A DNA stretch of 64,000 bases. Origin: Streptomyces iakyrus. GTDB taxonomy: Bacteria > Actinomycetota > Actinomycetes > Streptomycetales > Streptomycetaceae. Shown piece after piece: positions 48,276 to 63,068 of this stretch; within the stretch, counting starts at the first letter, position 1; each line of letters begins with the position of its first letter. The translations under genes and the position numbers were made by a program. The stretch lies in assembly GCF_000717055.1 (NCBI RefSeq), contig NZ_JNXI01000003.1, positions 1 through 64,000 on the forward strand, read 5' to 3'. The notes beneath the pieces were generated by a model. The model did no database searches. It saw only the letters and a list, made by a program, of their open reading frames with translations, and was not told the DNA's origin.

Positions 48276-48280
48276 GGCCG

Positions 48281-49327
48281 TCAGCCTCTCCAGCTCGCGG
48301 CGAGCGTGAGCAGGGCGTCGTTCTCCGCCCGCAGCCCGATCGTCACCCGGACGCCCTCACCGACGAACGGGCGCACGACGACGTCGTCGCCGAGGCAGTG
48401 CAGGGCGAAGTCCCCGCTGTCACCGGCGAGCGGCAGCCAGACGAAGTTGGCCTGGGAGTCGGGGACTTCGAAGCCTATGGCACGCAGCCGCCCTGTCACC
48501 CGCTGCCGCTCGGCGACCGTGAGGGCGGCCCGCCGGACGACCTCCGCGTGCTCGCCGAGGGCGACCGTCGCCGCCTCCTGGGCGAGCGCGCTGACGCTGA
48601 ACGGGATCTGGGTCTTGCGGACGTGCGCGGCGATGCCGGGCGGGCCCACGCAGTAGCCGACCCGCAGCCCGGCCAGGCCGTACGCCTTGGAGAAGGTCCG
48701 CAGCACCACCACGTTCGGCCGGTCGCCGAGCAGCGCGAGGGCGTCGGGGACCAGCTCCGGGTCGGCGTACTCCCGGTACGCCTCGTCGACGACGATCATT
48801 ACGTCCTCCGGCACCCGGTCCGCGAAGTCGCGCAGCGCCTGCTCGCCGACCGCGGTGGAGGTGGGGTTGTTGGGGTTGCAGACGAAGACCAGCCGGGTCC
48901 GGTCACTGACCGCCTCGGCCATCGCATCGAGGTCCAGCCCGTGCGCACGCAGGGGGACCTGCACGGCGGTGCCGCCCGCCACCGCGGTGAGGATCGGGTA
49001 CGCCTCGAAGGACCGCCAGCCGAAGACGACCTCGTCGCCGGGCCCGACGACCGAGTGCAGCAGCTGTGCGCAGACCTCCGAAGAGCCGGCGCCCACAGCG
49101 ATCCGCTCGGTCTCGACATCGTGGTGCTCGGCGAGGGCCTGGACGAGTGCGGTGGCGCTCAGGTCGGGATACCGCGACACCCCTCCGGCCATTTCCGCGA
49201 GCCTCGCCGTGACACCGGGCAACAGCCCGTACGGAGACTCGTTGCTGGCCAGCGCGACCGCGCCGGGCTTTTTGCGGCCGGGGACGTAGGCGGGCAGCTG
49301 GACCAGGGACGAACGGACACGCACCAT
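48281..49327 (-). CDS. HisC-type PLP aminotransferase (aromatic aminotransferase candidate)
   Basis: This 348-residue fold-type I aminotransferase has LASNESPYGLLPGV, GAGSSEVCAQLLHSVVGPGD, FVCNPNNPTST, DEAYREYAD and the PLP Lys in LRTFSKAYGLAGLRVGY. It is close to HisC/Pat proteins that act on histidinol phosphate or phenylalanine/tyrosine. No other his gene is near, and the shared promoter motif with bkd favours amino acid catabolism. ATG 49327 is chosen by homology. Confidence 0.88.
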   Translation of the reverse strand: MVRVRSSLVQLPAYVPGRKKPGAVALASNESPYGLLPGVTARLAEMAGGVSRYPDLSATALVQALAEHHDVETERIAVGAGSSEVCAQLLHSVVGPGDEVVFGWRSFEAYPILTAVAGGTAVQVPLRAHGLDLDAMAEAVSDRTRLVFVCNPNNPTSTAVGEQALRDFADRVPEDVMIVVDEAYREYADPELVPDALALLGDRPNVVVLRTFSKAYGLAGLRVGYCVGPPGIAAHVRKTQIPFSVSALAQEAATVALGEHAEVVRRAALTVAERQRVTGRLRAIGFEVPDSQANFVWLPLAGDSGDFALHCLGDDVVVRPFVGEGVRVTIGLRAENDALLTLAASWRG

Positions 49328-49377
49328 GCTCGACTCGCTTCTGCAGCGGCGGGTGCCGGAAGTCGTACCTCCGGGCA

Positions 49378-49418
49378 CTTGACAGGAGAATCGTGGACAG
49401 CAATCGACAATCGTTCAA
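49378..49418. promoter_or_regulatory. Shared upstream motif, aminotransferase
   Basis: CTTGACAGGAGAAT (49378-49391) and GTTCAA (49413-49418) repeat the arrangement found before the bkd operon with identical spacing, 51-91 bp upstream of the aminotransferase ATG. Confidence 0.5.
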
Positions 49419-49655: not shown

Positions 49656-50288
49656 ATGTCCAGGCCCCAGCTCGCCCACGGGTCGTTGACGTCACTGGCG
49701 GCGGCTCTGACACTGCTGACAACCGGCTGCGCGCAAAAAGCCGACGGCGCGCAGGTCGCCGCCGACGCCTGCCGGGCGGGCGACGGCTGGTCGGCCCAGA
49801 AGCGGGCGGAGTGGCTGCGCACGGCCGTGTCGCTCCCCGATGAGGCGGCGGCCGAGGACGCGGCGGTGGTGATCGGTTCGCACACCGGCGCGCCCCTGTG
49901 CGAACCGATCGCGGTGCAGGTCCAGTTCTGGGAGGCCACCGCCACGACGGCGGGAACGGACCTGAGGTCCGTCCTGCGTATCCGCCTGACCACCGACGGA
50001 AGCAGGCCCCGGACCATCGGCTTCCCCGGGGGCCTCGCCCCGGAGGAACGCGACGACTGCACCGGCGTCCTCATGGCGGCGTACCCCGGCACGCCCCTGG
50101 CCGAGAGCGAACTGCCCAAGGACATCGGCCTCCTCGTTCCCGGCAGCCCGAAGGTGAAGTTCAGAACCGGCAGGATCGGCGCCTACCGACTCCTCCCTCC
50201 GTCGCAACCGGAATCATGCCGCGCGAACGGAGAGCCCATGACCGCACCTCCCGCCATCCCAAACCCATGGGGCAGCAACCATCCGTGA
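49656..50288 (+). CDS. Putative lipoprotein
   Basis: This 210-residue exported protein has a signal peptide ending LLTTGC (lipobox-like) and a mature part with four further Cys. ATG 49656 has GAGGGAG upstream. The mature domain (WSAQKRAEWLRTAVSLPDEA, TDLRSVLRIRLTTDGSRP) matches no family I know. It is convergent with the RiPP operon and probably independent of it. Confidence 0.7.
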   Translation: MSRPQLAHGSLTSLAAALTLLTTGCAQKADGAQVAADACRAGDGWSAQKRAEWLRTAVSLPDEAAAEDAAVVIGSHTGAPLCEPIAVQVQFWEATATTAGTDLRSVLRIRLTTDGSRPRTIGFPGGLAPEERDDCTGVLMAAYPGTPLAESELPKDIGLLVPGSPKVKFRTGRIGAYRLLPPSQPESCRANGEPMTAPPAIPNPWGSNHP

Positions 50289-50410
50289 ACGACACCCCAG
50301 GGGAAGGACCGTTCACACAGACCGCGCAGGCCGTCCTCCGCTCCGCACGCGGGAGCCGTGGAACCCGGCGCCCACCCGACACAACAGCCGGGCCACTGGC
50401 ACGATGACTT

Positions 50411-51904
50411 TCAGTGCACGGTGCCCGCGGAGGGGGCCCGTGCCAGTGCCAGCGGGTCGGTGCGGATACCGAAGCGCCGGCGCAGGGCCTGCCGCGCGGC
50501 GTACAGCCCGCACATCCCGTGGACGGCCGGGCCGGGTGGGGTCGACGCGGAGCACAGATACACGCCGGGGATCGGGGTGGTGTACGGATCGCGGGCCGGC
50601 ACCGGTCGCATTGCCGTCTGCCACGAGGACAGCGCGCCTCCCGCGATGTCGCCACCGACGTAGTTGATGTTGTGGTCCGCCAGTCCGGCGGCGGGGATGG
50701 CGTGTCGGGCGAGCACGAGGTCACGGAAGCCCGGCGCGAAGCGTTCCACCTGCGCGGTCACCGCGTCCCCCATGTCCAGGGGTGAGCCGTGCGGAACGTG
50801 CGCGTAGGTGTACAGGGTGTGGCGGCCGACCGGCGCGCGGGTCGAGTCGACGACGCCGGGCTGGACGGCGAGAACGAAGGGACGCTCGGGGTGTCGGCCG
50901 GCGGCGACCTCGCGTTCGGCGGCCAGGGCCTCTGCACGGCTGCCCACCAGGTGCAGCGTGCCCGCGAGTTCGCAGCCGTGCGCCTTCCACGGCACCGGTC
51001 CCGACAGCGCGAAGTCGACCTTGCAGACAGCCCCGCCGTACCGGTACGACCGCAGGCGGCGGGCGTACCGGCCGGGGAGCGCGTCCCCGGCGACGCGCAG
51101 CAGTCCGGCCGGTGTCACATCCAGCAGGACGGCGCGGGAGCGCGGCAGCTCGGAGAGGCTGTGGATGTGCCGGCCGGTGATGATCCGCCCGCCACGGCGG
51201 CGCAGCTCGGCGGCCATCGCGTCCGCGATGGCCTGGCTGCCACCGAGAGGGATCGGCCAGCCCACGGCGTGTCCCAGGGCCGCCAGGACCAGTCCGACGC
51301 CCGCCGGGACGGGGGCGCGCGGTGGGGCGATGGCGTGCGCGCTCACTCCGGTGAGCAGCGCCGGGGCGAGGGGGCCGCGGAAGCGTGCTCCCCACAGCGG
51401 TGAGCCCTGCTCCGCGACGCGCAGTGCGAGGCGGGCCGCCGTGACGAGGTCCGGCGGAAGGCTTCGCAAATCCGACATGGCGGCGCCGGCCAGCCCCTGC
51501 CAGCGGTCCACCAGCGGGCCGAGCAGCGAACGCCAGGCCGGTCCGTCCTGTCCGAGTCCGTCGACGGTGCGGTCCAGGTCCCGCCAGGCGAGTCCCGCCC
51601 GGCCCTCGTCGAGGGGGTGGGCGTACGACACCGCGGGGCGTAGCATCCGCACCCCGTGCGCCGCGAGGTCGAAGGCGCGGAAGAAGGGCGAGGCCAGACC
51701 CATGGGGTGGGCGGCGGAGCACACGTCGTGGCGGAATCCGGGCAGGGTCAGCTCGGCGGTGCGGGTGCCGCCGCCGATGGTGGGCGCGGCCTCGTACACC
51801 TCGACCTCCAGCCCGGCCCCCGCGAGGACGATCGCCGCGGCCAGGCCGTTGGGCCCGGCCCCGACGACCACGGCGTCCACCTCGCCGTCGGATGCACCCC
51901 TCAT
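50411..51904 (-). CDS. FAD-dependent phytoene-desaturase-like oxidoreductase
   Basis: This 497-residue flavoprotein has the N-terminal dinucleotide motif VVVGAGPNGLAAAIVLAGAG, GGGTRTAELTLPGFRHDVCS and the C-terminal FAD segment PGVYLCSASTPPGPAVHGMC. It is the last gene of the RiPP operon, coupled to the peptidase by ATGA. Oxidoreductases of this type accompany several linaridin clusters and would oxidise the core peptide (dehydrogenation or decarboxylation). The substrate is inferred from context. Confidence 0.88.
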   Translation of the reverse strand: MRGASDGEVDAVVVGAGPNGLAAAIVLAGAGLEVEVYEAAPTIGGGTRTAELTLPGFRHDVCSAAHPMGLASPFFRAFDLAAHGVRMLRPAVSYAHPLDEGRAGLAWRDLDRTVDGLGQDGPAWRSLLGPLVDRWQGLAGAAMSDLRSLPPDLVTAARLALRVAEQGSPLWGARFRGPLAPALLTGVSAHAIAPPRAPVPAGVGLVLAALGHAVGWPIPLGGSQAIADAMAAELRRRGGRIITGRHIHSLSELPRSRAVLLDVTPAGLLRVAGDALPGRYARRLRSYRYGGAVCKVDFALSGPVPWKAHGCELAGTLHLVGSRAEALAAEREVAAGRHPERPFVLAVQPGVVDSTRAPVGRHTLYTYAHVPHGSPLDMGDAVTAQVERFAPGFRDLVLARHAIPAAGLADHNINYVGGDIAGGALSSWQTAMRPVPARDPYTTPIPGVYLCSASTPPGPAVHGMCGLYAARQALRRRFGIRTDPLALARAPSAGTVH

Positions 51905-52788
51905 GTGCCCGCCACCACGATGGTCTGCCCGTCGGCGGGGACACTCTCGGCGGGTTCCCGGCCGTCGACACCGACATCGGAGAAGACGAACGGCATCCCG
52001 GCGGCGACGAGCGGGGAGGGATGGTCCATCAGCTGGAAGTGCAGGTGCGGCTCACTGGAGTTGCCGGAGTTGCCGCAGCGTCCGATCACCTGGCCGCGGT
52101 GGACCCGCTGACCGGGTCTGACCCTGGCCGACCCGTGTTGGAGGTGCGCGAAGAGCGCGTAGGCGTGGCCGCCGAGGTCCAGGACGATGTGGTTTCCGAA
52201 TACGCCCCGGGGGCCTGCGAGTCCTCGGACCATGCCGTCCAGGGTCATGTAGGCGAGCGCAGGCCGGGTCGAACGGCTGCGGTGGTCCTTTGCCCGGTCC
52301 CGGACCGTCACGACCCGCCCGTCGCAGGGCGCCACCAGCTCGCGGCCGAAGGCGGGGAAGTCGTCGGGCGGCCGGAAGCCAGGGGTTTCACCGAACTTCG
52401 GGCGTGAACCGCTCTCGGGCTCGTGTACCAGGTCGATCGCGAACGTCTGGCCATAGGCGTGCGTGCGATGGCTCGGCACCCTGGTGCCGGGGCTGTTCAC
52501 AGCAGACCAGCGACCGGTGACAGGGGCGCCCAGGGAGCGTGGCGTGACCCGCGGTGCGGCCGGCAGGAAGGACAGCGCCAGCCCCAGTACCAGCACCGCG
52601 GATCCGGTCAGCCACAGGTCGGACGCCAGCCCCGGGGTGAACACGGATGGCAGTGCCGAGGGGCCCAACACACCGCTGATCAGTACCGCGGGACCCACTG
52701 GGGTGGCGATCCCCCTGACCCGGGCGCTGAGCCGGAACCATGCCGGCAGTGCCTGCGGCACGTTTTCCACAGCCCCCGCGCCGCTCAT
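51901..52788 (-). CDS. Membrane-anchored M23 (LytM-type) peptidase
   Basis: This 295-residue protein has two N-terminal TM helices (TPVGPAVLISGVLGPSALP, LTGSAVLVLGLALSFLP) and a C-terminal M23 domain with zinc ligands in THAYGQTFAIDL (His, Asp) and EPHLHFQL (HxH). Such domains cut Gly/Ala-rich peptides, which fits a leader or core of this composition. It is coupled by ATGA on both sides within the RiPP operon, so precursor cleavage is a reasonable inference. Confidence 0.85.
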   Translation of the reverse strand: MSGAGAVENVPQALPAWFRLSARVRGIATPVGPAVLISGVLGPSALPSVFTPGLASDLWLTGSAVLVLGLALSFLPAAPRVTPRSLGAPVTGRWSAVNSPGTRVPSHRTHAYGQTFAIDLVHEPESGSRPKFGETPGFRPPDDFPAFGRELVAPCDGRVVTVRDRAKDHRSRSTRPALAYMTLDGMVRGLAGPRGVFGNHIVLDLGGHAYALFAHLQHGSARVRPGQRVHRGQVIGRCGNSGNSSEPHLHFQLMDHPSPLVAAGMPFVFSDVGVDGREPAESVPADGQTIVVAGT

Positions 52789-53369
52789 GACGCCTGGCCC
52801 GTGGGAACGAACGGGGACAGGAACACATAGTCCGGTTCGTGGCCCTGGTCGTGCCCGGTGTGTCTGGCGATCAGGAACTGGAACCCCTGCGGCGGTGAGT
52901 CCTGACCGGCGCATGCGTCCCGCACGGTCAGCGCCACGGAGTCCCGCAGGACCCGGTACACGGGGAACCGTACGATCTCCAGGCCCGGCCTGTTCATGAG
53001 CATGATCAGTTCGGCGCACACGTCGAACAGTGCCTTCTCGCGGCGGCGGTCCGGGAACCACAGGAGCTGGTGCCAGGCCCGGGGGGTGATCCGCGTGGTC
53101 TCCTCCCAGGGGGTCTGGGTGCCGTCCGCCGTCAGCACGCGGTGCAGGACGTGGAAGTCGTGCTGGGCGGGCTCGGGGGCGAAGAACTTCCAGTTCGGTA
53201 TGAGCAGTCCGGTCCTGTCACGGTTGCGGACACGGCCGAACGTGCTGTGCGGATGCTGGCCGGCGGTGGTCGCGCCGAGCCACGCCGCGAGCCCGCCGAG
53301 GAGCAGCAGGGTGAGGGCGCCTCGCGACTTCTTCCGTACCGCGCCGCCGTCAACTCGCTGGGCGTTCAT
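52785..53369 (-). CDS. Small membrane-anchored protein of the linaridin-like cluster
   Basis: This 194-residue protein has one N-terminal TM helix (ALTLLLLGGLAAWLGATTAG) and a domain beginning NWKFFAPEPAQHDFHVLHRV that is common in partners of HTTM proteins. It overlaps the HTTM-hydrolase gene by 20 bp and the peptidase by ATGA. Its position and size match the small CypL-type membrane protein needed with CypH for dehydration in linaridins. That role is inferred. Confidence 0.75.
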   Translation of the reverse strand: MNAQRVDGGAVRKKSRGALTLLLLGGLAAWLGATTAGQHPHSTFGRVRNRDRTGLLIPNWKFFAPEPAQHDFHVLHRVLTADGTQTPWEETTRITPRAWHQLLWFPDRRREKALFDVCAELIMLMNRPGLEIVRFPVYRVLRDSVALTVRDACAGQDSPPQGFQFLIARHTGHDQGHEPDYVFLSPFVPTGQAS

Positions 53370-55254
53370 GGGAATCTTCTTCCTTCTCGGTCCTCGCTGC
53401 TTCCTCGCCGAGGCTCGCGACGAAGTCAGACATCAGCTTGACGACGTACTCGGCCGTCTCCCTGTTCGTGAGTACGGAGTCGTGGTCGGCGTTGTCGATG
53501 ATGTGGTGCGCGGCGTGCGGAGCCGATTCGGCCAGCTCGGCGTGGAGTTCCGTCTGGACCGGGTCCTGGGATGCGGTGTGGCCGGCCGTCATGACGAGCA
53601 GGGGGACGCCGGGGTCCGGCATCGTCCCGTCGAAGGAGGTGAACTCCTCCTGCACGGCGCGCCACTCGCGGCGTCCGGCCGCCCACATCCGCGGGTCCCG
53701 GTACTGCGCCACCAGCAGTTCCCGTATCTCCTCGGGCAGCCGGTCGACCCAATCGGGGTGAGTCAGCAGTGCGCCCATGCCGAGCTTCAGCGAGACGTTC
53801 ATGTTCGAGAGCACTCTGCTGAACTGCTCCGCGCCCCGGGCCTGGCGGGACGAGCGCTGGAGCTCGGCGGGATGACTGGAGTCAAGCAGTCCGATTCCGA
53901 GGATCCGGCCCGGGAGCCGGTCGGCCGCCTTCAGCGCCAGATAGCCGCCCAGGGAGTGGCCCACCACGAAGACCGAGCGGTCGCCGGCCGTGTGCCCGAC
54001 CAGGTCGACGAGATCGTCCACGGCGGTGTGGAGGCCGTACTCGTCGCCCTCGCGCCCGGCATAGGTGCTGCGGCCGTAGCCCGCCCGGTGGTAGGTCACG
54101 ACGGGGAACCGCTGCGAGAGCCCTCGGACGATCCACTCCCAGTGCTCGACGGTCGCGACGAGGCCGTTCTCCAGGATGACGACCGGCTGTGTGCCGTCGT
54201 CGGCCGCACCGTCCGGACCGGTGCGGCGGTAGGAGATCGTGTTCCCGGACGAGGCCGTGAACTCCCGCTCGTCACCCCGGCCCCGCAGCACCGTGCGGCT
54301 CTGGCGGACCTTCTCCGCCTGGAGGGCGCCCAGTCCGGCTGCCAGCATCCCCATCGCCAGCACCGGCAGAGCGTCGTCGCGCCGCTCCACCCGGCCCTCG
54401 GCCCCGACGTGCTCGCGCGGGCCCGCGGCGTACAGAACGGCCGGGTGCATGGAGACGAACGACCACAGGAAGCGGCCAAGTCCCATCACCCGGGCGTTGG
54501 CGAGGTGGAAGAGGGCCGCCGAACCCAGCATCAGCGGAGCCGGCCGCCCCTTGGCGAGGAACACGGCGGGGAACGCGCACTCCAGGGCGAGCACACCGGC
54601 GCAGAGCACGTGCGCGGCACGCGGGTGACGGCGCGCCAGCTCCCACGCGGTCCGGTCCCCATAGGTCAGGGTCCGCATCACCCCGGGCAGCGCCCGGCCG
54701 CTGCGCCAGGTCGGGCTGATTATCTTGACCCAGCCGGACACGGCGTACGACAAGGTCGACTGCAGGGCGACGAACCACAGGCAAGCGTCCACGACCTGCG
54801 GATTCCGCTCACCCGCCCGGGCGACCGTAGCGACCGACTGGACCAGGAAGGACACCTGGTCGGAGCCGTCGGTGCCGTAATGGTTGATCGGATACAGCAG
54901 AAGCGAGGTACCCGACAGCACGGCGTTCGCGGCGACACGCACCGGGCGGGGCGACGGCGCCAACAGCGCCACCGCGGCTCCCACCCGGGCGACATGCACC
55001 GCACGCGTGACGCGTGGCCGGGCGGCGAAGTCGAGCACCTTGACGAGCCGCGGCGACCAGGTCGAGAAGGCCTCCCGGTTGACCTCCCAGTTGTTCAGCC
55101 CGCCCGGCCGCCTGTCGCGGTCGGTCGTCAGATACTCCAGACTCGACGCGAGGTGCGTCGCGGCGCTCAGCCGCTCACTGAGTGAGAGGGCCTTGGCCCG
55201 GCTCACGTTCGGCGGCGACAGGACGGCACGCATCAGTTTCGGCAACCGTGCCAC
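53350..55254 (-). CDS. HTTM membrane domain fused to alpha/beta hydrolase (CypH/LinH-like)
   Basis: This 634-residue protein has an HTTM-type membrane domain with several TM helices (about 90-310; LLLYPINHYGTDGSDQ, LSYAVSGWVKIISPTWRSG, FPAVFLAKGRPAPLMLG) and a hydrolase domain (330-615) with nucleophile Ser434 in VVGHSLGGYLAL and the His in IIDNADHDSV. This fusion is the hallmark of linaridin clusters, where CypH acts in dehydrobutyrine formation. It sits between the ABC exporter and its membrane partner, making it the strongest evidence for the cluster type. Confidence 0.87.
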   Translation of the reverse strand: MARLPKLMRAVLSPPNVSRAKALSLSERLSAATHLASSLEYLTTDRDRRPGGLNNWEVNREAFSTWSPRLVKVLDFAARPRVTRAVHVARVGAAVALLAPSPRPVRVAANAVLSGTSLLLYPINHYGTDGSDQVSFLVQSVATVARAGERNPQVVDACLWFVALQSTLSYAVSGWVKIISPTWRSGRALPGVMRTLTYGDRTAWELARRHPRAAHVLCAGVLALECAFPAVFLAKGRPAPLMLGSAALFHLANARVMGLGRFLWSFVSMHPAVLYAAGPREHVGAEGRVERRDDALPVLAMGMLAAGLGALQAEKVRQSRTVLRGRGDEREFTASSGNTISYRRTGPDGAADDGTQPVVILENGLVATVEHWEWIVRGLSQRFPVVTYHRAGYGRSTYAGREGDEYGLHTAVDDLVDLVGHTAGDRSVFVVGHSLGGYLALKAADRLPGRILGIGLLDSSHPAELQRSSRQARGAEQFSRVLSNMNVSLKLGMGALLTHPDWVDRLPEEIRELLVAQYRDPRMWAAGRREWRAVQEEFTSFDGTMPDPGVPLLVMTAGHTASQDPVQTELHAELAESAPHAAHHIIDNADHDSVLTNRETAEYVVKLMSDFVASLGEEAARTEKEEDSHERPAS

Positions 55255-55335
55255 GATGCGGACCCCCTTCCCTCATTGCTGCGGATGGTGACGGTGGTCA
55301 TTGGTGCGGCCGCTGACACGGGGCCGCTGTGGTGC

Positions 55336-57183
55336 TCAGCCGAGCAGTTGGTGTGAGGCGAGCTCGGCGTACAGGGCGTCGTCGCGCAGCAGCGCGTCGT
55401 GTGTGCCGACGGACCTCAGCCCGCCGTCCTGGATCACCGCGATACGGTCGGCCGAGCGCACGGTCGACAGGCGATGGGCCACGACCACGACAGTGGTCCG
55501 CGTCGACAGTTCCTCGATGACCTCGCGTAGCGCCGCCTCGTTGACGGCGTCGAGCTGTGAGGTCGCCTCGTCGAGGAGGAGCAGGCGTGGGCGGCGCACC
55601 AGGGCCCGCGCGATGGCGATGCGCTGCCGCTCGCCCCCGGACAGGGAGGTGCCGTGGTGGTCGATGGAGGCGTCGAGGTCGCCGCCGAGGCGTTCCAGCA
55701 GCGGCAGGAGACGGGTTGCGGCCAGCGCCGCGTACAGATCGTCGTCCGTCGCCGCGGGGGCGGCATAGGCGAGGTTGTCGCGCAGCGTGCCCGCCATCAC
55801 CGGGGCGTCCTGCTCGACGTAGCCGATGCCGACGCGCAGGTCCTTCAGGTCCCAGTCGCGCAGATCGCGCCCGTCGAGAAGGACGCGGCCGCGGTCCGGG
55901 TCGTAGAAGCGCTCGATGAGATTCAGCGTGGTGGACTTGCCGGCGCCGGAGGGGCCCACCAGGGCGGTCAGCCCGGTGGCCGGGATCCGCAGGGAGAAGC
56001 CGTCCAGCGCGGGGGTGTTCCGGCCCGGATAGGTGAAGGCGACGTCCTCGAAACGCAGGTCGGCCGCACCCGTGTGCCGCCCGCCGGTCACGTGCAGCGG
56101 TGAAGGAGCCTGTTCCACGGGCTCGGTGGGCAGCCGGGTGACCTCGGCCAGGCGTTGCACGGCAGCCCGCGCGGCCTGGAAGTAGGTGCCCACGTCGGTC
56201 AGCGACATGACCGGCTGCGCGAGATAGAGGACGTACAGCAGGAACGCCGTGAGCGTGGCCACCGAGATCGCGCCGCTGCTGACCCGGGCACCGCCCACGC
56301 CGAGCACGACGAGAAAGGCCACCTGCATGGCGAGCCCCGCGGCGGTGCCCGCCACCGAGCCCCAGCGGGCGAGCACGACACCCTGGTCGTACGCGTCCCG
56401 GGCCGCCGCGTCGACCCGCTCGGCCTCGACCTCCTCCGCCCCGGACGCCTTGACCGTGGTGAAAGCGCTCAGCGCACGTTCCAGAGCCGCGCCCATCAGC
56501 CCCACCGACTCCTGCGCCCGCAGCGCCGCGCGCCGGATCAGGGGCAGGATGACGCCGACCACGCCCCCCAGGAGGACGACCACACCGACGGTGACGGCGA
56601 GCAGCACGGCGTCGACGACGGCCATCATCACCAGCGTGCCGACGATCATCACGACTCCGGTGAGGGCCTGCACCAGGGTCTGGGTGACGATCTGCCGCAG
56701 CAGCGAGGTGTCGCCCGCGGCCCGGGCGAGCAGATCACCCGGAGCCTGGCTGCGCATGGCCTTCATCGGCAGCCGCAGTATGTGACGCACCAGCCCGCTG
56801 CGTCCGGCCAGCACCACGCGCTCGGCCGCACGCAGCAGCAGGAAGTTGCCGACCGCCAGCGCGAGCGCGGCCACCAGCACCAGGGCGACGAGCTTCAACA
56901 GGTCCGGCGCCACCTCGTTCCCCTGTGCGTACACGGTGAGGACGTCTTCCACCACGAGTGGCTGGAGCAGGCCGAGCACCCCCGCCCCCACCAGCAGCAG
57001 GCTCGCCACCGTGATCTCCCGCCAGTGCGGGCGCACATAGCCGCGGAAGACCATGAACGTCTCCCGCAGGGAAAGCCCGTCCCCTGACGCGGCGCCGGCG
57101 CCGGTGGATTCCGCGCCCGCGTCCGGCTCATCCGTGATGGTCCCCGTGTCCGGGGCGTCGGTGCTCAGTGAAGTGCTTGCCAT
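55336..57183 (-). CDS. ABC exporter (membrane-ATPase fusion) of the RiPP cluster
   Basis: This 615-residue half-transporter has a six-TM domain (60-340) and an ATPase with Walker A VGPSGAGKSTTLN, Q-loop GYVEQDAPVMAG, signature SLSGGERQRIAIA and Walker B LLLLDEATSQLD. It lacks a C39 peptidase domain, so leader removal needs another protease (perhaps the M23 protein). It corresponds to CypT-type exporters. It starts 10 bp after the methyltransferase. Confidence 0.93.
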   Translation of the reverse strand: MASTSLSTDAPDTGTITDEPDAGAESTGAGAASGDGLSLRETFMVFRGYVRPHWREITVASLLLVGAGVLGLLQPLVVEDVLTVYAQGNEVAPDLLKLVALVLVAALALAVGNFLLLRAAERVVLAGRSGLVRHILRLPMKAMRSQAPGDLLARAAGDTSLLRQIVTQTLVQALTGVVMIVGTLVMMAVVDAVLLAVTVGVVVLLGGVVGVILPLIRRAALRAQESVGLMGAALERALSAFTTVKASGAEEVEAERVDAAARDAYDQGVVLARWGSVAGTAAGLAMQVAFLVVLGVGGARVSSGAISVATLTAFLLYVLYLAQPVMSLTDVGTYFQAARAAVQRLAEVTRLPTEPVEQAPSPLHVTGGRHTGAADLRFEDVAFTYPGRNTPALDGFSLRIPATGLTALVGPSGAGKSTTLNLIERFYDPDRGRVLLDGRDLRDWDLKDLRVGIGYVEQDAPVMAGTLRDNLAYAAPAATDDDLYAALAATRLLPLLERLGGDLDASIDHHGTSLSGGERQRIAIARALVRRPRLLLLDEATSQLDAVNEAALREVIEELSTRTTVVVVAHRLSTVRSADRIAVIQDGGLRSVGTHDALLRDDALYAELASHQLLG

Positions 57184-57193
57184 CGTGGCGTCC

Positions 57194-58003
57194 TCACCGT
57201 TCCTGGCCCGGGGCTGCGGAAGCGGCATGCTCGTCCGGACCCGGGTCGGCGTTCCTGTCCGCGCTCCGGTACACACAGATCGTCATCGGCTCGGCGCCGG
57301 TGAACGGCGACCCCTGCCAGTCCCCGTAGCGCGCCTCCAGACGCAGCCCGGCGCGTTCGGCGTACGCATCGATCTCTTCGGGTATCGTCAGCCTGCTGCT
57401 CTCCGAGGCGAGCCGGGTGCCGCCGCCCTCGTGCCAGATGTGTGACAGGTGCCAGAGCTGTCGGGCGGGGACGATGAGGGAGTACGACTGCAGAGCGGCG
57501 TTCTCCCCGCAGGGGATGAGGAACGTGTCGCGCAGGCGCCCCTCGTGCATCGCGTCCACGAAGGCCGGATTGTGGGTCTCGACGACCACGGCACCACCGG
57601 GGGCCAGGGCCTGCGCACAGGTCTCGAGCACCTGCTGCTGTTCTGCGGGGTCCAGCAGCATCGACAGTGTTCCGCACACGCAGAACACCAGGCCGTGCTT
57701 GCGCTCGCTCCGGTAGGTCCGGATGTCGCCGTGCACCGCGGTGACGGGCCGCGGCTCGCGCGCCAGTGCTTCGCGCAGCACCTGCAGCATTTCCGGGGAG
57801 GAGTCGACACCGACCACCTCACCGGCCTGGTCCGCCAGCGGCAGGGCGATACGTCCTGTGCCGACGCCGAGTTCCAGTGACGCCGTACCGTCTCCCGGAT
57901 GGAGGTCGGCGAGCCGTTTCACCGTGTCGTCCCCCGGCGGGAATATTCGGTTGTAGAAGTCGGCGAACTGACGTCCGTAGCCGAGGTCCTGGATATCACT
58001 CAT
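57194..58003 (-). CDS. SAM-dependent methyltransferase (CypM-like candidate)
   Basis: This 269-residue class I methyltransferase has motif I LELGVGTGRIALPL, VVGVDSSPEMLQV and HGDIRTY. It lies between the precursor genes and the exporter on the same strand. In cypemycin-type linaridins CypM dimethylates the N-terminal amine of the mature peptide, and the predicted cores here mostly begin with Ala or another small residue. The last 20 residues are disordered. Confidence 0.88.
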   Translation of the reverse strand: MSDIQDLGYGRQFADFYNRIFPPGDDTVKRLADLHPGDGTASLELGVGTGRIALPLADQAGEVVGVDSSPEMLQVLREALAREPRPVTAVHGDIRTYRSERKHGLVFCVCGTLSMLLDPAEQQQVLETCAQALAPGGAVVVETHNPAFVDAMHEGRLRDTFLIPCGENAALQSYSLIVPARQLWHLSHIWHEGGGTRLASESSRLTIPEEIDAYAERAGLRLEARYGDWQGSPFTGAEPMTICVYRSADRNADPGPDEHAASAAPGQER

Positions 58004-58117
58004 GTGACCTGCTCGATAGACGATGGTTCGGAGATCGCACAGGGGGCGAAACTCCCTTTTCTGGGCAATGAAGGGGAGGGCGGACAGGTCAGGACCGGTA
58101 CGCCCTCCCCTGGTGGA

Positions 58118-58303
58118 TCAGCTCGGCTGCTTCGAGCCGGCGACCGCGAGACTGGGGCCGCTAACCGAAGCGAAGCCCATGCAGGCAATTGCAGGGGTCG
58201 CGAGGACCGGTGCGAGTTCATCCATCTGCTGGGCCCGGTCGGACCTCAGCGGCAACTCCGCCAGTACGCTGCTGGCATTCACGCGTTCTGTCAGCACGGA
58301 CAC
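58118..58303 (-). CDS. Linaridin-like precursor peptide 1
   Basis: This 61-residue peptide has a GTG start with AAGGAG at 5-nt spacing. The leader (VNASSVLAELPLRSDRAQQM) carries the PxxxTP motif as APVLATP. The predicted core after ATP holds a Cys (AIACMGF) and several Ser and ends GSKQPS. It is the last of five paralogues in transcription order. Confidence 0.82.
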   Translation of the reverse strand: MSVLTERVNASSVLAELPLRSDRAQQMDELAPVLATPAIACMGFASVSGPSLAVAGSKQPS

Positions 58304-58381
58304 GATTACTCCTTTTACGTCATGTCATGGTTCGGGGAAGGCTCGGCCGCGCCCCGTCAGATGCACGGCCAGGGGCCGGAT

Positions 58382-58579
58382 TCAGTTCGGCTGCTTCGAG
58401 CCGGCGACCGTGTAAATGTCGGCCAATGCGACGGCGACGGCGGCGGCGGCGGCGACCAAGGCGGCGGAAGGGGTCGCGAGGACAGGTGCGAGTTCGTCCA
58501 TCTGCTGGGCCCGGTCGGCCCTCAGCGGCAACTCCGCCAGTACCCTGCTGGCATTCACGCGTTCTGTCAGCACGGACAC
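58382..58579 (-). CDS. Linaridin-like precursor peptide 2
   Basis: This 65-residue paralogue has a leader almost identical to that of peptide 1, with APVLATP. The core is extremely Ala/Val-rich (LVAAAAAVAVALADIYTVAG) with one Ser and one Thr and ends GSKQPN, the only Asn-ended member. It has a GTG start and AAGGAG SD. Confidence 0.82.
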   Translation of the reverse strand: MSVLTERVNASRVLAELPLRADRAQQMDELAPVLATPSAALVAAAAAVAVALADIYTVAGSKQPN

Positions 58580-58655
58580 GATTACTCCTTACGTCATGTC
58601 ATGGTTCGGGATAGGCTCGGCCGCGCCCCGTCAGACGCACGGCCAGGGACCGGAC

Positions 58656-58868
58656 TCAGCTCGGCTGCTTGCTGCCGCCGGCCGCGAGACCGGCGCCGAA
58701 CGCGTTGGTGACCGCAACGCCGACGCCCACTCCGGCGGCGAAGGCCACGGCGGTGGCAGGGGTCGCGAGGACCGGTGCGAGTTCGTCCATCTGCTGGGCC
58801 CGGTCGGCCCTCAGCGGCAACTCCGCCAGTACGCTGCTGGCATTCACGCGTTCTGTCAGTACGGACAC
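58656..58868 (-). CDS. Linaridin-like precursor peptide 3
   Basis: This 70-residue member has the longest core: small residues with Thr near the front (ATAVAFAAGVGVGVAVTNAF) and an extra Gly-rich stretch before GSKQPS. The leader and APVLATP match peptides 1 and 2. It has a GTG start and AAGGAG SD. Confidence 0.82.
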   Translation of the reverse strand: MSVLTERVNASSVLAELPLRADRAQQMDELAPVLATPATAVAFAAGVGVGVAVTNAFGAGLAAGGSKQPS

Positions 58869-58945
58869 GAGTGCTCCTTACGTCCAGTCATGGTCAGGGG
58901 AAGATTCGGCCGGGCCGCGACAGGGGCACGGCCAGGGGGCCGGAT

Positions 58946-59140
58946 TCAGCTCGGCTGCTTACTGCCGATAGCACCGGCGACGTATGGGGTGGCGACGACG
59001 TAGAGACCGACCGCAACCACAACGGCGCCAGGGGTCGCGAGGACCGGTGTGAGTTCATCCATCCGTCGGGCCCGGTCGGCCCTCAGCGGAAACTCCGCCA
59101 GTACGCTGCTGGCGTTCACGTGTTCTGTCAGCACGGACAC
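58946..59140 (-). CDS. Linaridin-like precursor peptide 4
   Basis: This 64-residue paralogue has TPVLATP in the leader and a Val-rich core with Tyr and one Thr (GAVVVAVGLYVVATPYVAGA) ending GSKQPS. By alignment the start is GTG 59140, but its AAGGAG is only 3 nt away. A GTG seven codons earlier would place that SD inside the frame. Translation of this copy may differ from that of the others. Confidence 0.78.
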   Translation of the reverse strand: MSVLTEHVNASSVLAEFPLRADRARRMDELTPVLATPGAVVVAVGLYVVATPYVAGAIGSKQPS

Positions 59141-59215
59141 GTGCTCCTTACGTTCTGTCACGGTCAGGGGAAGATTCGACCGGGCCGCGACAGGGGCACG
59201 GCCAGGGGGCCGGAT

Positions 59216-59419
59216 TCAGCTCGGCTGCTTACTGCCGAGAGCACCGACGGCGTAGCCCACGGCGTATGCCGCCACCGAGACGCCCACTCCTGCGGCGAAA
59301 GCCGCGGGCGTGGCCATCACGGGAGTCAGCTCCGAAAGGTGGCGGGCTCCGTGCGTCGTCCTCAGATCGCCGAACAGCATCGGCGATCTGCCATTGACGT
59401 GATCAGAGATACTGGTCAT
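59216..59419 (-). CDS. Linaridin-like precursor peptide 5 (first in operon)
   Basis: This 67-residue member is the most divergent in its leader (MTSISDHVNGRSPMLFGDLR) but keeps LTPVMATPAAF, close to the CypA cleavage region, and the GSKQPS end. It uses ATG with AAAGGA upstream. Its core (AAFAAGVGVSVAAYAVGYAV) has one Ser before the tail. It probably represents the ancestral copy nearest the promoter. Confidence 0.8.
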   Translation of the reverse strand: MTSISDHVNGRSPMLFGDLRTTHGARHLSELTPVMATPAAFAAGVGVSVAAYAVGYAVGALGSKQPS

Positions 59420-59604
59420 CGTGCAGATTCCTTTCCTGTGTGGGTATGAAGTCCGCCGGAACGGTTCCGAGCGCGGATTCTTCATGGGCATGTGCCGTGA
59501 CGGCCGGCCACGCTGACGGGCAGGGACGGGCCGCGGGTTCAGGCACACCGAACGCTGCGGCCGTACGTGAACCGCGCGCAGGCATATGGGTCAGTCGCAC
59601 CGGT

Positions 59605-60570
59605 TCACGGCGCTGTGCAGGTGCCGGGGATCGGGCCGAGGTATGCCTCCAGGAAGGCGACCGTCGGACAGAACGCCCGGGAGCTGTAGCCCAGGCCGTG
59701 CACGTGCCCCGGCAGCACCAGCGTCGTGGCCTCCACGTCGGCTTCCACCAGGGCGGCGTTCATGACCTTGAGCTGGTTCAGCGGAATCTTCTCGTCGACC
59801 GAGTTAGCCAGCAGCATCGGCGGGGTGGTGGAGGCGACATGGGACACCGGAGAAGCGTCCGCGGCCGTCGCCATGCAGGCCCGGGTTCTCCTCGGGTCGC
59901 AGCCCAGGTAGTTGAGGGACGTCATGATGTTCTCGGGACTGGCGCCGGTGAAGTCGGTGAAGTCATAGGCGCCCGACCATCCGACCGCGGCCGCGACCGA
60001 GACCTCACCCTGCCCCTTGCCGGTCAACGCTGCCGTATGGGTCGCGAGGGTGGCGCCGGCCGAGGTGCCCCAGACCGCGATACGGTCCGGGTCGACCCGG
60101 TAGGTGGATGCGTTCTCGGCCAGGAACTCGGTGGCGGCCTGGACGTTCTGCACCTCGACCGGAAAGCCGGCCGTCCCGCGGGGCGGCATGCAGTAGTCGA
60201 TGGAGAAGACGGCCCAGCCCTTCGACGCCAGATACGTCCCGGTATTCACGAACCATTCAGAGTTCCGTACTCCCGACACGAAGCCTCCGCCGTGCACGAG
60301 GATCACCGCCGGTGCGGCGTCCTCCAGTGGCGGTGACGGCAGGTACGCGTCCGCGAGTTGGCTCTGCATACCCTCGCCCGGGCACTCCTCCGTCAGGTAG
60401 GTGATGCCTTGGACGACCTTGACCCCGGTGTCCGTCGGCGTCACGTCCGCCGCACCTGCCCGGCTCACGGCCAAGTAGGCGAGCAGGCCGAGCGCGGTCA
60501 CCCCGGCCGTCAACAGGCCGACCGCGCGGTGCCGCTTCCGGCGGCGGGTGTGCAATGCTCGCGCTACCAA
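59605..60570 (-). CDS. Exported alpha/beta-hydrolase (esterase/lipase)
   Basis: This 321-residue protein has a basic N-terminus and a signal/anchor helix (VGLLTAGVTALGLLAYLAVS). The hydrolase domain has the oxyanion HGGGF, nucleophile GTSAGATLA, the acid in NSVDEKIPL and the His in PGHVHGLGY, as in the hormone-sensitive-lipase family. TTG 60570 is preferred because GGAGG lies 6 nt upstream. It lies 185 bp upstream of the precursor operon on the same strand and may be part of the cluster or an independent gene. Confidence 0.82.
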   Translation of the reverse strand: MVARALHTRRRKRHRAVGLLTAGVTALGLLAYLAVSRAGAADVTPTDTGVKVVQGITYLTEECPGEGMQSQLADAYLPSPPLEDAAPAVILVHGGGFVSGVRNSEWFVNTGTYLASKGWAVFSIDYCMPPRGTAGFPVEVQNVQAATEFLAENASTYRVDPDRIAVWGTSAGATLATHTAALTGKGQGEVSVAAAVGWSGAYDFTDFTGASPENIMTSLNYLGCDPRRTRACMATAADASPVSHVASTTPPMLLANSVDEKIPLNQLKVMNAALVEADVEATTLVLPGHVHGLGYSSRAFCPTVAFLEAYLGPIPGTCTAP

Positions 60571-60946
60571 CAGGTTCCTCCTTTGAAAAGGCGCCGCAGC
60601 GGCGGCCGTTCTGTCTCTGCTCCTGCCGCAGGCATGCGTGTGCTTCAAAAGGGGCCGCCCGCGAGAGGGAGATGAACGACGTGATCGGCGCCCCAGGCTC
60701 ACGAACATCAGTTTCCGTACGGTGGGTCCAGATCCGGTCGGCCGACGGTTCAGTACCGGTATGCCTGCTGCTCGCGCGGGGCGGTGGCGATGTGGCAGTC
60801 GGAACAGCGGGGTGCCGTGTGCTCCGCATGCCGTGAGCGGTGCCCGTGGCGCCCTGGGCCGGCAGCCGGCGCACAGGGCAACCGGCAACCGGCAACCGGC
60901 AACCGGCAACCGGCAACCGACCGGAGGGACGTGCGACCGGACACGG
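60571..60946. other. Spacer between esterase and SARP gene
   Basis: I see no gene here. It contains the CAACCGG repeat tract and must hold the esterase promoter. Confidence 0.4.
60879..60920 (+). repeat. Six-unit CAACCGG heptamer repeat
   Basis: Five exact CAACCGG units plus CAACCGA run without a gap, 26 bp after the SARP stop codon. Each heptamer step is less than one helix turn. It could be a replication-slippage tract or an array of half-sites for a regulator. Confidence 0.9.
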
Positions 60947-62827
60947 TCATGCGTCCGGGGCGAGGGCAGTTGCAGCCGCTGCCCCGATCGCCGACTGTGC
61001 CGCTACCTCGTTGGCGTAGAGACGGATCAGGTGCGACACGGCATACAGGGCGTCGGATGCGGCGATCTCCCCCGCGGGTAAGGCGACCACCCCCATCTCG
61101 ATCAGCCGTTCCACCGTCCACAGCGCCGGCCTCTTCTCACAGCCAAGCGCCGTGGCGGCCTCCTCCAGGGTGAACAGTGCGGGCAGGGGCCCGATTCGGA
61201 GCAGGGCGGAACGGGTGGAGTCGTCCAGATGCCGCCATTGGTCGGCGACATGGCGCCGCACCGCGATGTCGCCCGCGGAGAGCTCGTCCAGTGCCGTCGC
61301 GGGGTCGTCCAGCCGGGCCGCGTACTCTTCGAGCGGCAGGTGCCGCAGCACCGCGAGTTTGAGGCCGGCGGCCCGGACCGCCAGCGGCAGCATCCCGCAG
61401 GCCGTGACGATCCGCTCGGCGGCGGCCTGGTCGGACCGCACCCGGCGGGGGCCGATGACCCGACCGAGCATGTCCAGCGCCTCGGGCATGGAGTATGGCG
61501 GCACCTCGACCCGCAGGACGGGAGCGAGTCCGGCGAGCTGGGTCCGGGCGGTCACAACGGCCGAGCTCGGGCCGGCACTCGGTAGCAGCAGCCGGACACT
61601 CGCCTCGTCCGGAGCGTCGTCGAGCACCAGCAGGAGTTTCTGTCCCACCAGCCAGGCACGCCAGAGTGCGGCGGCCCGCTCCGGCTCCTCCGGCCTGCTC
61701 TCGGCCAGGCCGGCGAACGACCACAGCTCGGCCGTCAGCGACGCGAGGCACCGGGGCTTCCCGCTGTCCTCGCGGAGCCGCACGAAGATCTGCCCGCCGG
61801 GGAACTCGTCGCGCAGGCGGTGTGCGACATGGATGGCCAGTGCGGTCTTCCCGGCACCGGCCGGTCCAACGGCGACGACGGCCGCGCTGCCGCGCGCAAG
61901 GGCCTCCCGCAGTTCCCGCACCTGGTCCTCCCGGCCGGTGAAGTCGGCGGTGTCCGGCGGCAGCAGGGCAGCAGACCTCCCCGACTGAGCGATTTTGCTT
62001 CGGCGGGCCGGCCCGGTGCCGGGCGGGAAGCCGGCACCCGTTGTCCCCTCGCCCAGGATCGAGTGGTACAGCGCCTTCAGCGCCGGGCTCGGGGGCAGAC
62101 CCAGCTCGCGCGACAGATGCTGCCGCAGTGCGTCGTAAGCCGCCAGGGCCTCGGCGCGGCGTCCCGACCGGTGCAGTGCGGTCATCTGAGCGGCCCTCAG
62201 CCGCTCCCGCATCGGGTGCTGCTCCACGAGGTCACCGACGGCTTCGACGACCTCGTGGGCGTGCCCGAGCCCGAGTTCGGCCTCGGCCCAGTCCTCGCTG
62301 ACAGTCAGGTATCGGCTCATCAGGCGGTCAGCCTCCGCCTGGACGGGTTGCGAACTTCGCAGTTCCGGCAGCGGAGGCCCGGCCCACAGCTCCCGTGCCT
62401 GCCGGAGAAGACTGGCAGCGGCTTCGAGGTCCCCGCTCGCGGCGGCCTGACGCCCGGCGCGGCCCATGGCCTGGAGCCGCAGGGAGTCGAGGTCGGTGTC
62501 GGCCAGCCGGAGGCGATAGCCCCCCGAGTGGTGGACGAGCCGGTCCGCGTCCCCTGCTTCGGCCAGGAGCTTGCGCAGCGCCGACACATACATCTGCAAG
62601 TTCTTGCGCGCGGTTCTGGGCGGTTCGTCCTCCCAGACCGCCTCCGTCAGCATGTCGACGGAAACCGGCGTGTTGGGGTGGCACAGCAGCATCGCGAGGA
62701 CCAGTTGCTGCTTGTGAGGGCCGAGTGGGAGCATCAAGCCGTCGATTTCGGCCGACAGGTGCCCGAGGACACGGAACCGCACACGTCCCGGCTGTGGTCC
62801 GCGCCCGGGGTCGGATGCCTCAGGCAT
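60947..62827 (-). CDS. SARP/AfsR-type regulator with BTAD and NB-ARC domains
   Basis: This 626-residue regulator has an OmpR-like winged helix (VRFRVLGHLSAEIDGLMLPL, ARKNLQMYVSALRKLLAEAG), a BTAD helical domain (115-260), then a STAND ATPase with P-loop VGPAGAGKTALAIHVAH and Walker B LLLVLDDAPDEAS. ATG 62827 overlaps the stop of a small upstream ORF. It is the probable activator of the RiPP cluster on the same strand. SARPs bind TCGAG-type heptamer repeats, which I did not find clearly upstream of the precursors. Confidence 0.9.
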   Translation of the reverse strand: MPEASDPGRGPQPGRVRFRVLGHLSAEIDGLMLPLGPHKQQLVLAMLLCHPNTPVSVDMLTEAVWEDEPPRTARKNLQMYVSALRKLLAEAGDADRLVHHSGGYRLRLADTDLDSLRLQAMGRAGRQAAASGDLEAAASLLRQARELWAGPPLPELRSSQPVQAEADRLMSRYLTVSEDWAEAELGLGHAHEVVEAVGDLVEQHPMRERLRAAQMTALHRSGRRAEALAAYDALRQHLSRELGLPPSPALKALYHSILGEGTTGAGFPPGTGPARRSKIAQSGRSAALLPPDTADFTGREDQVRELREALARGSAAVVAVGPAGAGKTALAIHVAHRLRDEFPGGQIFVRLREDSGKPRCLASLTAELWSFAGLAESRPEEPERAAALWRAWLVGQKLLLVLDDAPDEASVRLLLPSAGPSSAVVTARTQLAGLAPVLRVEVPPYSMPEALDMLGRVIGPRRVRSDQAAAERIVTACGMLPLAVRAAGLKLAVLRHLPLEEYAARLDDPATALDELSAGDIAVRRHVADQWRHLDDSTRSALLRIGPLPALFTLEEAATALGCEKRPALWTVERLIEMGVVALPAGEIAASDALYAVSHLIRLYANEVAAQSAIGAAAATALAPDA

Positions 62828-63068
62828 GGGCCGGGCCCGAATCGACCCCACATCGTCGGGCCAGCCGGCCAGGGGGACGGCCACGGTTCATGCGCCGTAC
62901 CCGGGTCTTGCCACGTGTTGCCCGAGAGTCCGGGCGAGCCGGATGTTCGGGGCGGCCGGCCCGGTCGATGTCACCGTCACGGCCGCTGCCCGTGGCCCCC
63001 TCATCAGGCAGCTCGCCGAGTGCCGCCCTGTCGCTCTGCCGGTCGTACCAGGCGCATGGCCCAGCCAT
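62820..63068 (-). CDS. Small ORF translationally coupled to the SARP gene
   Basis: This 82-codon frame starts at ATG 63068 behind an excellent SD (GGAAGGAG) and ends with an 8-bp overlap with the SARP start. The peptide is Arg/Asp/Gly-rich without a recognisable fold, and its third-position GC is lower than that of neighbouring genes. It may be a leader ORF whose translation drives the SARP rather than a functional protein. Confidence 0.4.
   Translation of the reverse strand: MAGPCAWYDRQSDRAALGELPDEGATGSGRDGDIDRAGRPEHPARPDSRATRGKTRVRRMNRGRPPGRLARRCGVDSGPAHA

Follow-up and report, generated by a model that had tools for sequence, protein, structure and literature searches.

A five-precursor peptide gene cluster in Streptomyces iakyrus suggests a third, sister lineage of linaridins

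The linaridins characterised so far are, to our knowledge, single peptides marked by dehydrobutyrine derived from threonine. Class IIb two-peptide bacteriocins are paired peptides with GxxxG motifs, a double-glycine leader and an exporter that carries a peptidase domain. As parts of linaridin clusters, PMC9927463 names LinL, which serves as the marker, together with an HTTM protein, an ATP-binding cassette (ABC) transporter, an alpha/beta-hydrolase and a PxxxTP leader motif; for the daptides, PMC10036551 describes products that are synergistic haemolysins. Here we compare with these systems a gene cluster of Streptomyces iakyrus (assembly GCF_000717055.1), located at 50411-59419 of a 64,000-nucleotide stretch of contig NZ_JNXI01000003.1, positions 1 to 64,000, referred to below as the window. 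Our reading of the locus as a whole, held at somewhat better than even confidence, is that it is a cluster for ribosomally synthesized and post-translationally modified peptides (RiPPs), that it belongs to a third, sister lineage of linaridins, and that it would make a set of cooperating hydrophobic peptides, with the chemistry and activity of the products being predictions.

Read along the minus strand from 59419 to 50411, the cluster holds five precursor genes followed by genes for a methyltransferase, an ABC exporter, a fused HTTM-hydrolase, a LinL homolog, an M23 peptidase and an FAD (flavin adenine dinucleotide) oxidoreductase, in that order. A first-pass annotation, made from the letters of the DNA, had described five small paralogous open reading frames (ORFs) with a PxxxTP leader and this set of genes after them on one strand. 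Both descriptions stand, the downstream genes being recognized by Pfam with HTTM and DUF5819 below cut-off. The precursors were examined with a hidden Markov model (HMM) built from 95 precursors of other loci, leaving out those of the window and of S. muensis. Searched against the 940 stop-to-stop ORFs of at least 30 residues in the window, this leave-out HMM recovers exactly five matches, the next having an E value of 0.21, so the precursors are not a chance observation. All five leaders end in PV[LM]ATP and thereby carry the PxxxTP motif.

In our best reading of the sequences, the first precursor is of an alpha type and the other four are of beta types. A1 (59216..59419, minus strand, as for all genes of the cluster; 67 residues) is an ORF with a ribosome-binding site, a leader running to PVMATP and the core AAFAAGVGVSVAAYAVGYAVGALGSKQPS (leave-out HMM E 2.9e-16). 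A2 (58946..59140; 64 residues, GTG start) has the core GAVVVAVGLYVVATPYVAGAIGSKQPS (E 4.8e-11), A3 (58656..58868; 70 residues) the core ATAVAFAAGVGVGVAVTNAFGAGLAAGGSKQPS (E 2.2e-15), A4 (58382..58579; 65 residues) the core SAALVAAAAAVAVALADIYTVAGSKQPN (E 3.8e-11) and A5 (58118..58303; 61 residues) the core AIACMGFASVSGPSLAVAGSKQPS (E 1.7e-10). The cores are aliphatic, rich in Ala, Val or Gly, and end in GSKQPS or GSKQPN. Alpha relatives occur in S. muensis, S. collinus and others; the beta relatives found for A3 carry GSKQPN in S. collinus but end differently in S. muensis, NPDC000878 and HUAS ZL42. Among A3-A5, the leaders are 0.96-0.97 identical and the cores 0.53-0.58; divergence concentrated in the core would be expected were this the part that diversifies. 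Calculated monoisotopic neutral masses of the unmodified cores, taken from behind ATP, are 2638.375 (A1), 2572.426 (A2), 2873.504 (A3), 2612.417 (A4) and 2235.103 (A5); dimethylation would add 28.031, and each dehydration would subtract 18.011. From A1 to A5, the cores hold 0, 1, 2, 1 and 0 Thr residues. Dehydrobutyrine derived from Thr is therefore not possible in A1 and A5, where only Ser could be dehydrated, and the first-pass prediction of dehydration for the five cores is too simple in this respect. None of the five reaches the cut-off of the linaridin precursor models NF033402, NF033403 or NF033752, the sole listing being A3 with NF033402 at 10.5 bits (cut-off 35). These models annotate known members and do not define the linaridin class.

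The modifying enzymes link the cluster to described linaridins. In three cypemycin-type, or type A, loci (L239, L241, L242), HTTM and hydrolase domains share one open frame of 619-622 residues beside LinL. Precursors were compared with NF033752, the model of the cypemycin family, for L239 and L241, and they score 100 and 89 bits, over its cut-off. The window likewise has a fused HTTM-alpha/beta-hydrolase of the LinH type (53350..55254; 634 residues), with both domains found by Pfam in one ORF and the HTTM domain at 20.3 bits, under the cut-off of 27.7. It is followed by a 194-residue, DUF5819-like LinL homolog (52785..53369), which scores 24.3 bits against Pfam DUF5819, below the cut-off of 27.1. 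A structure model of this protein has one N-terminal helix and a small domain, and it finds no fold match in the PDB at E<=0.001; by sequence, the single PDB match, a thread matrix protein at E 0.009, was judged spurious. Identity between the window and L239 is 33% for HTTM, 27% for the hydrolase, 34% for LinL and 28% for the methyltransferase, which in the window is an S-adenosylmethionine-dependent protein of 269 residues (57194..58003; Pfam Methyltransf_25). Because the cypemycin-type loci have the fused HTTM-hydrolase together with LinL, the linaridin assignment holds at the level of the enzymes. Their leaders also end similarly, in PAMATP. In contrast, the window precursors have no NF033752 match and no C-terminal Cys, their cores ending in Ser or Asn, and no decarboxylase for aminovinyl-cysteine (AviCys) is found among the six other ORFs of the cluster. 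The motif scan showed one precursor in each of the three type A loci, as compared with five in the window, and in the HTTM tree described below these loci fall in a separate clade. The window also has an M23 peptidase with a hydrophobic N-terminal part (51901..52788 from the ATG at 52788, within a longer ORF to 53061; Pfam Peptidase_M23) and a 497-residue FAD oxidoreductase resembling amine oxidases and CrtO (50411..51904; Pfam), whereas neither has a match in the three cypemycin-type stretches fetched.

A second point of comparison is the PEG-type clade, which has matches to NF033402 or NF033403 and is presumably type B, that of legonaridin/pegvadin. A search of 295 same-genus (Streptomyces) genomes with NF033402 gave three matches over cut-off (L113, L114, L115). 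L113 has homologs of LinL, methyltransferase, FAD, ABC, HTTM and hydrolase proteins, with identities to the window of 41%, 49%, 51%, 38%, 33% and 29%, respectively. L114 has the ABC gene and no methyltransferase match; L115 has no methyltransferase and a weak ABC match. All three carry LinL and FAD genes and, unlike the window, separate HTTM and hydrolase genes. The PEG type differs further in having one Thr-rich precursor and no M23 peptidase. Corynaridin, as described in PMC9927463, has the HTTM protein, alpha/beta-hydrolase, LinL, ABC transporter and PxxxTP motif in common with the window and differs in its single Thr-rich precursor, its short-chain oxidoreductase and its want of a methyltransferase.

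The distribution of the accessory genes was counted in a set of 89 loci with an HTTM relative, from which seven near-identical loci were removed to leave 82; 41 weak loci (L065-L105) and the short loci L009-L025 were excluded from counts. Eight PEG-type and four basal loci were set apart by tree position, and the remaining 70 constitute the lineage of the window. The FAD gene is present in all eight PEG-type loci and in 52 of the 70 lineage loci. The M23 gene occurs in 10 of the 70 (in 9 of the 88 loci other than the window, none of them PEG-type). Its absence from the eight PEG-type loci and from the cypemycin-type stretches goes against the first-pass placement of an M23 peptidase within the linaridin gene set.

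The methyltransferase could also point to a daptide-like pathway, in which helical hydrophobic peptides would receive charged ends through a decarboxylase, an aminotransferase and a methyltransferase. Its top NCBIfam model is daptide_MTase, and PMC10036551 describes daptide clusters with several aliphatic-rich precursors and synergistic haemolysis; several hydrophobic peptides per cluster, N-methylation chemistry and synergy, the latter two predicted for the window, would be common to both systems. The match, however, scores 81 bits, below the cut-off of 175. Daptides, according to the same paper, have recognition that depends on a RiPP recognition element, a decarboxylase/aminotransferase pathway and an invariant C-terminal Thr. 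Among the six cluster ORFs there is no alcohol dehydrogenase (PF00465) or class III aminotransferase (PF00202), the cores end in Ser or Asn, and a nearby class I/II aminotransferase is matched in none of the 88 other loci. No daptide model is listed for the precursors either, although whether NCBIfam holds one was not checked. We regard this pathway as very improbable for the window.

The relationship to known linaridins was examined with phylogenetic trees. A LinL profile search of 384 genomes gave matches in 56 and led to 18 further loci, with L239, L241 and L242 among them. The maximum-likelihood HTTM tree (64 domains) comprises the window, 41 chosen from the 82 loci, 15 of the 18 further LinL loci (L233, L238 and L246 were dropped) and seven outgroup rows; the outgroup consists of distant HTTM proteins beside DUF5819 genes, and the midpoint root falls on its branch. 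The window lies inside a clade with support of 100/99. Cypemycin-type and PEG-type linaridins form a clade of their own (98/99) that is sister to it, with the joint node at 87/96. In the LinL tree (57 proteins: the window, 40 chosen loci and 16 of the 18 further loci, L238 and L246 being dropped), the same groups are split by a 99/98 branch, with the cypemycin and PEG types joined at 96/91. Against the sister placement, the 87/96 node is below the mark for strong support given by the tool. In the LinL tree, one long-branched lone LinL (L233) falls inside the multi-precursor side. A wider tree with 82 rows also recovers the PEG clade and the pairing of the window with S. muensis, though with weak support at its deep forks. 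From these sequence comparisons we call the cluster a putative third, sister lineage of linaridins, not a plain member, because the enzymes, LinL and the leader motif are common while the precursors reach no model cut-off and the product chemistry is a prediction. The linaridin assignment made at first pass thus survives in its fused HTTM-hydrolase, LinL, methyltransferase, exporter and leader motif and does not carry over to the precursor models or, going by these trees, to a place among the known types. The first-pass annotation had also raised a grouping of the HTTM-hydrolase outside LinH proteins as a reason to doubt the class; the clade comes close to this in lying, in the HTTM tree, outside the cypemycin and PEG types, yet the LinH/LinL machinery is common to both sides. 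In a basal group of four loci (L121, L193, L229, L231), HTTM and hydrolase share a single long open frame, and each locus has one detected precursor, roughly 100 residues long, that continues past PVLxTP into a longer polar C-terminal region; the group was linked to no model here.

Lys177 of the HTTM domain is invariant in 24 of 24 HTTM sequences, a set that leaves out the cypemycin-type ones. In the HTTM proteins linked to DUF5819, the residue aligned with it is likewise an invariant Lys. Chemistry like that of the vitamin K carboxylase may be entertained for the HTTM domain as an idea from sequence. PMC5343777 does not mention K218 or Lys218, and Lys177 is tied to no solved active site; no HTTM protein is among eight PDB sequence matches, and the fold-search lists are filled by the hydrolase domain. 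A DUF5819-HTTM gene pair is present elsewhere in the genome of the window (G000:C13:244017-245626; L213, L216) and in 19 of 20 relatives, and by eye the HTTM gene follows the DUF5819 gene at 26 of 27 DUF5819 loci over cut-off. DUF5819 plus HTTM is probably an old gene pair related to LinL plus HTTM.

Several precursors per locus are usual in this lineage. In its 70 loci, none was detected in 15, one in 8, two in 34, three in 12 and five in one, the window. At least two are thus present in 47 of the 55 loci with any detected precursor, as compared with one in seven of the eight PEG-type loci and none detected in the eighth. Since detection relied on profile plus motif, undercounts are likely. 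The first-pass remark that five precursors are unusual is right in that five is the maximum among the 82 loci, and it misses that multiple precursors are the rule here. Two positional types were evident in 22 dereplicated two-precursor loci with both genes upstream of the HTTM gene: similarity is 0.203 for precursors at the same position and 0.151 across positions (0/500 random swaps), or 0.198 and 0.123 for cores alone (0/500 swaps). Similarity at the same position beyond that across positions indicates two conserved precursor types. In S. muensis an alpha is accompanied by two betas, and for S. collinus the database search gave one of each. The peptide mixture suggested at first pass is accordingly better described as one alpha type and four beta types. 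Corynebacterium propinquum DSM 44285 (L057) is a two-precursor member of the lineage with a PVTATP/PVMATP pair. In six loci (L178, L179, L180, L184, L185, L042), the one detected precursor has a PTLGTP motif followed by a long C-terminal region rich in Ala, Asn and Gln.

Composition also separates the cores from PEG-type ones. The 117 lineage cores contain 0.051 Thr per residue, as compared with 0.160 in seven PEG-type cores. A Thr-free product class as a general claim was rejected, given that 22 of the 117 lineage cores lack Thr; six lack both Ser and Thr. GxxxG is enriched in 76 non-redundant cores of all lineages, with 85 occurrences as compared with 53 (standard deviation 6) after shuffling (0/1000). 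Several counts tell against our overall reading of the locus: single detected precursors in 8 of 55 loci and none in 15 of 70, a third counted ORF in L182 that looks spurious, an excess of A...A in the same 76 cores (238 vs 190) and no excess of G at spacing 7 (33 vs 47). The last two mean that the GxxxG excess may belong to a general small-residue period.

These data bear on the simplest alternative, an ordinary linaridin cluster in which five independent peptides would be dehydrated at Thr or Ser, N-dimethylated and active alone, with several precursors widening the spectrum. The enzyme kit in common with known types agrees with it, as do the 95 of 117 lineage cores that hold at least one Thr and the leaders of four of the five window precursors, which are 0.90-0.97 identical, as after recent duplication. 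However, the low Thr density and the lack of Thr in A1 and A5 fit it poorly, and neither a conserved alpha/beta positional pair nor the matched tails described below would be expected of independent peptides. We consider an ordinary linaridin cluster unlikely, though by no means negligible.

In six close Streptomyces clusters, the C-terminal tail of the cores behaves differently from the remainder. Across these clusters, likeness is 0.84 for alpha cores and 0.76 for beta cores, whereas it falls to 0.29 and 0.30, respectively, for the last eight residues. Within a cluster, the alpha and beta tails agree at 0.725 as compared with 0.348 when permuted (1/720, the identity pairing only), and coupling of cores and leaders is absent (114/720 and 617/720). 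In NPDC000878, alpha and beta end in the identical 14 residues GGCGGGPQPPKQAL. In 14 alpha/beta clusters, with a single beta taken from the window and from S. muensis, each of which has more than one, tail likeness is 0.555 within and 0.170 between clusters (0/20000 permutations). In 31 dereplicated lineage loci with at least two precursors, the within-locus tail mean is 0.345 as compared with 0.125 across loci (0/2000 shuffles). The matched tails are unrelated between places: GSKQPS, NKER, GTRPVPK, QLP, THPTLPHA, NT[RK]LPM and EPVIQ/EPIIT. Other results argue against a special standing of the tail. The 14-cluster set was picked after the tails had been seen, and in it the cores are also coupled (0.400 vs 0.334, 0/20000), as are the leaders (0.172 vs 0.140, 132/20000). 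The five Micromonospora-type clusters give a weak tail signal (10/120), and cores do no worse there (6/120). Strongly shared tails (at least 0.5) occur in only 8 of the 31 loci, and one of these, L176, has a generic AGR-type end. So only part of the lineage has matched tails. The M23 peptidase was considered as a tail-trimming protease and rejected: the other loci that have it mostly lack shared tails, and shared tails occur without an M23 match in S. muensis and in Micromonospora loci.

Tail sharing could be a by-product of tandem duplication and 3'-end gene conversion, with no function of its own, which is compatible with the remainder of the explanation that we favor. The DNA of A1 and A2 is identical in the tail (1.00) and 0.95 alike in the next 75 bases of 3' flank, while leader and core have diverged (0.65 and 0.64), a pattern that points to copying of the 3' end. 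Identical codons encode 104 of 133 shared tail residues, as compared with 75 expected from codon usage; this excess indicates that DNA copying accounts for part of the sharing and so counts against a tail kept by function. By eye, the first two genes of L040 are also alike just past the stop. On the other hand, the DNA after the stop differs, again by eye, in L028, L044, L168, the third L040 gene and largely in S. muensis, although the tail residues agree wholly or partly. Switches between Ser codons AGY and TCG and between Arg codons CGN and AGR are seen, and several subclades show shared tails whose sequences are unrelated from one to the next. A by-product without function is a serious possibility that falls short of an even chance, and tail sharing probably arises from both copying and selection. 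More tentatively, and with doubt, we suggest that the tail, carried by alpha and beta peptides with conserved cores, may be a fast-changing identity code specific to each cluster, which must match within a producer and would be read by a partner peptide, the exporter or an immunity protein.

Our best reading of the product set, from sequence, is one alpha and four beta peptides that would be N-methylated, membrane-active and cooperating. In the mechanism that we propose, leaders would be removed after ATP and the new N-termini methylated. The HTTM-hydrolase and LinL would alter the core through alpha-carbon chemistry such as epimerisation, with some dehydration of Ser or Thr. Export would be carried out by the ABC protein (55336..57183; Pfam ABC_membrane and ABC_tran), which has membrane and ATPase domains and no peptidase domain in the Pfam scan; the ATG at 57183 is preferred in an ORF open from 57276. 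Once inserted, the products would be helices paired by way of their GxxxG faces, and alpha and beta would act jointly on membranes of competing bacteria, much like class IIb two-peptide bacteriocins and the daptides with their synergy. The matched tail would be a module held constant across the set; the likeliest reason is that all members must be recognised by a single partner, whether exporter, immunity protein or paired peptide. The window resembles class IIb bacteriocins in having two different peptides per putative operon, seen at the gene level as the two positional types of the 22 loci, and in the GxxxG motifs. It differs in leaders that end in PV[LM]ATP instead of a double glycine, in the exporter lacking a peptidase domain and in the enzyme-rich cluster. 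By analogy, the cluster may work like two-peptide bacteriocins or daptides; by the tests made here, it is a member of neither.

The peptides might instead be signals or morphogens that stay in the membrane of the producer and are not antibiotics. Their cores are very hydrophobic and resemble transmembrane segments, and the related DUF5819-HTTM pairs occur in nearly all sampled relatives. The distribution is, however, patchy, with 44 of 392 same-genus genomes matching at E<=1e-50 when PEG-type and other loci are counted in, and variation of core and tail from cluster to cluster fits competition better than housekeeping. A signaling or morphogenetic role therefore appears improbable, and joint action on competitors remains our preferred reading.

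The coordinates 50411-59419 given at first pass are right, and they also look like functional limits, since the flanking aldehyde dehydrogenase, class I/II aminotransferase, 236-residue ORF and esterase have no match in the 88 other loci at E<=1e-8. The aldehyde dehydrogenase and aminotransferase genes (46590-49378, minus strand) lie just downstream of the cluster. Upstream is a SARP-type regulator with BTAD and NB-ARC domains (60947-62884, minus strand), which may control the cluster, given that SARP-like proteins occur in 8 of the 88 other loci. No Rfam family reaches its gathering score within the window. A consensus scan of 49800-61200 gave no promoter-like sites (0.5 expected) and four terminator-like sites (2.9 expected), a scan that is uninformative for Streptomyces.

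Clusters of this lineage are easily overlooked. None of six lineage precursors tested (five from the window and one from L167) reaches the cut-off of the NCBIfam linaridin precursor models, and the relatives named in the protein search bear the annotation hypothetical or uncharacterized protein, apart from one annotated as a bacteriocin. Among the titles and beginnings of abstracts listed in searches of the linaridin, daptide and HTTM literature, none describes the lineage, although some of its loci may be among the linaridin clusters mined earlier (Georgiou 2020), 561 in number according to PMC9927463. If the tail is an identity code, this would be a multi-component RiPP class whose set of products evolves jointly with self-recognition by way of a detachable tail. 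A sister lineage that combines the LinH/LinL core with pairs of Thr-poor precursors would reveal the work of these enzymes where dehydrating Thr is not the chief task. With its alpha and beta peptides and matched tail, it would also offer a multi-peptide system amenable to genetics, suited to direct tests of cooperation among RiPPs.

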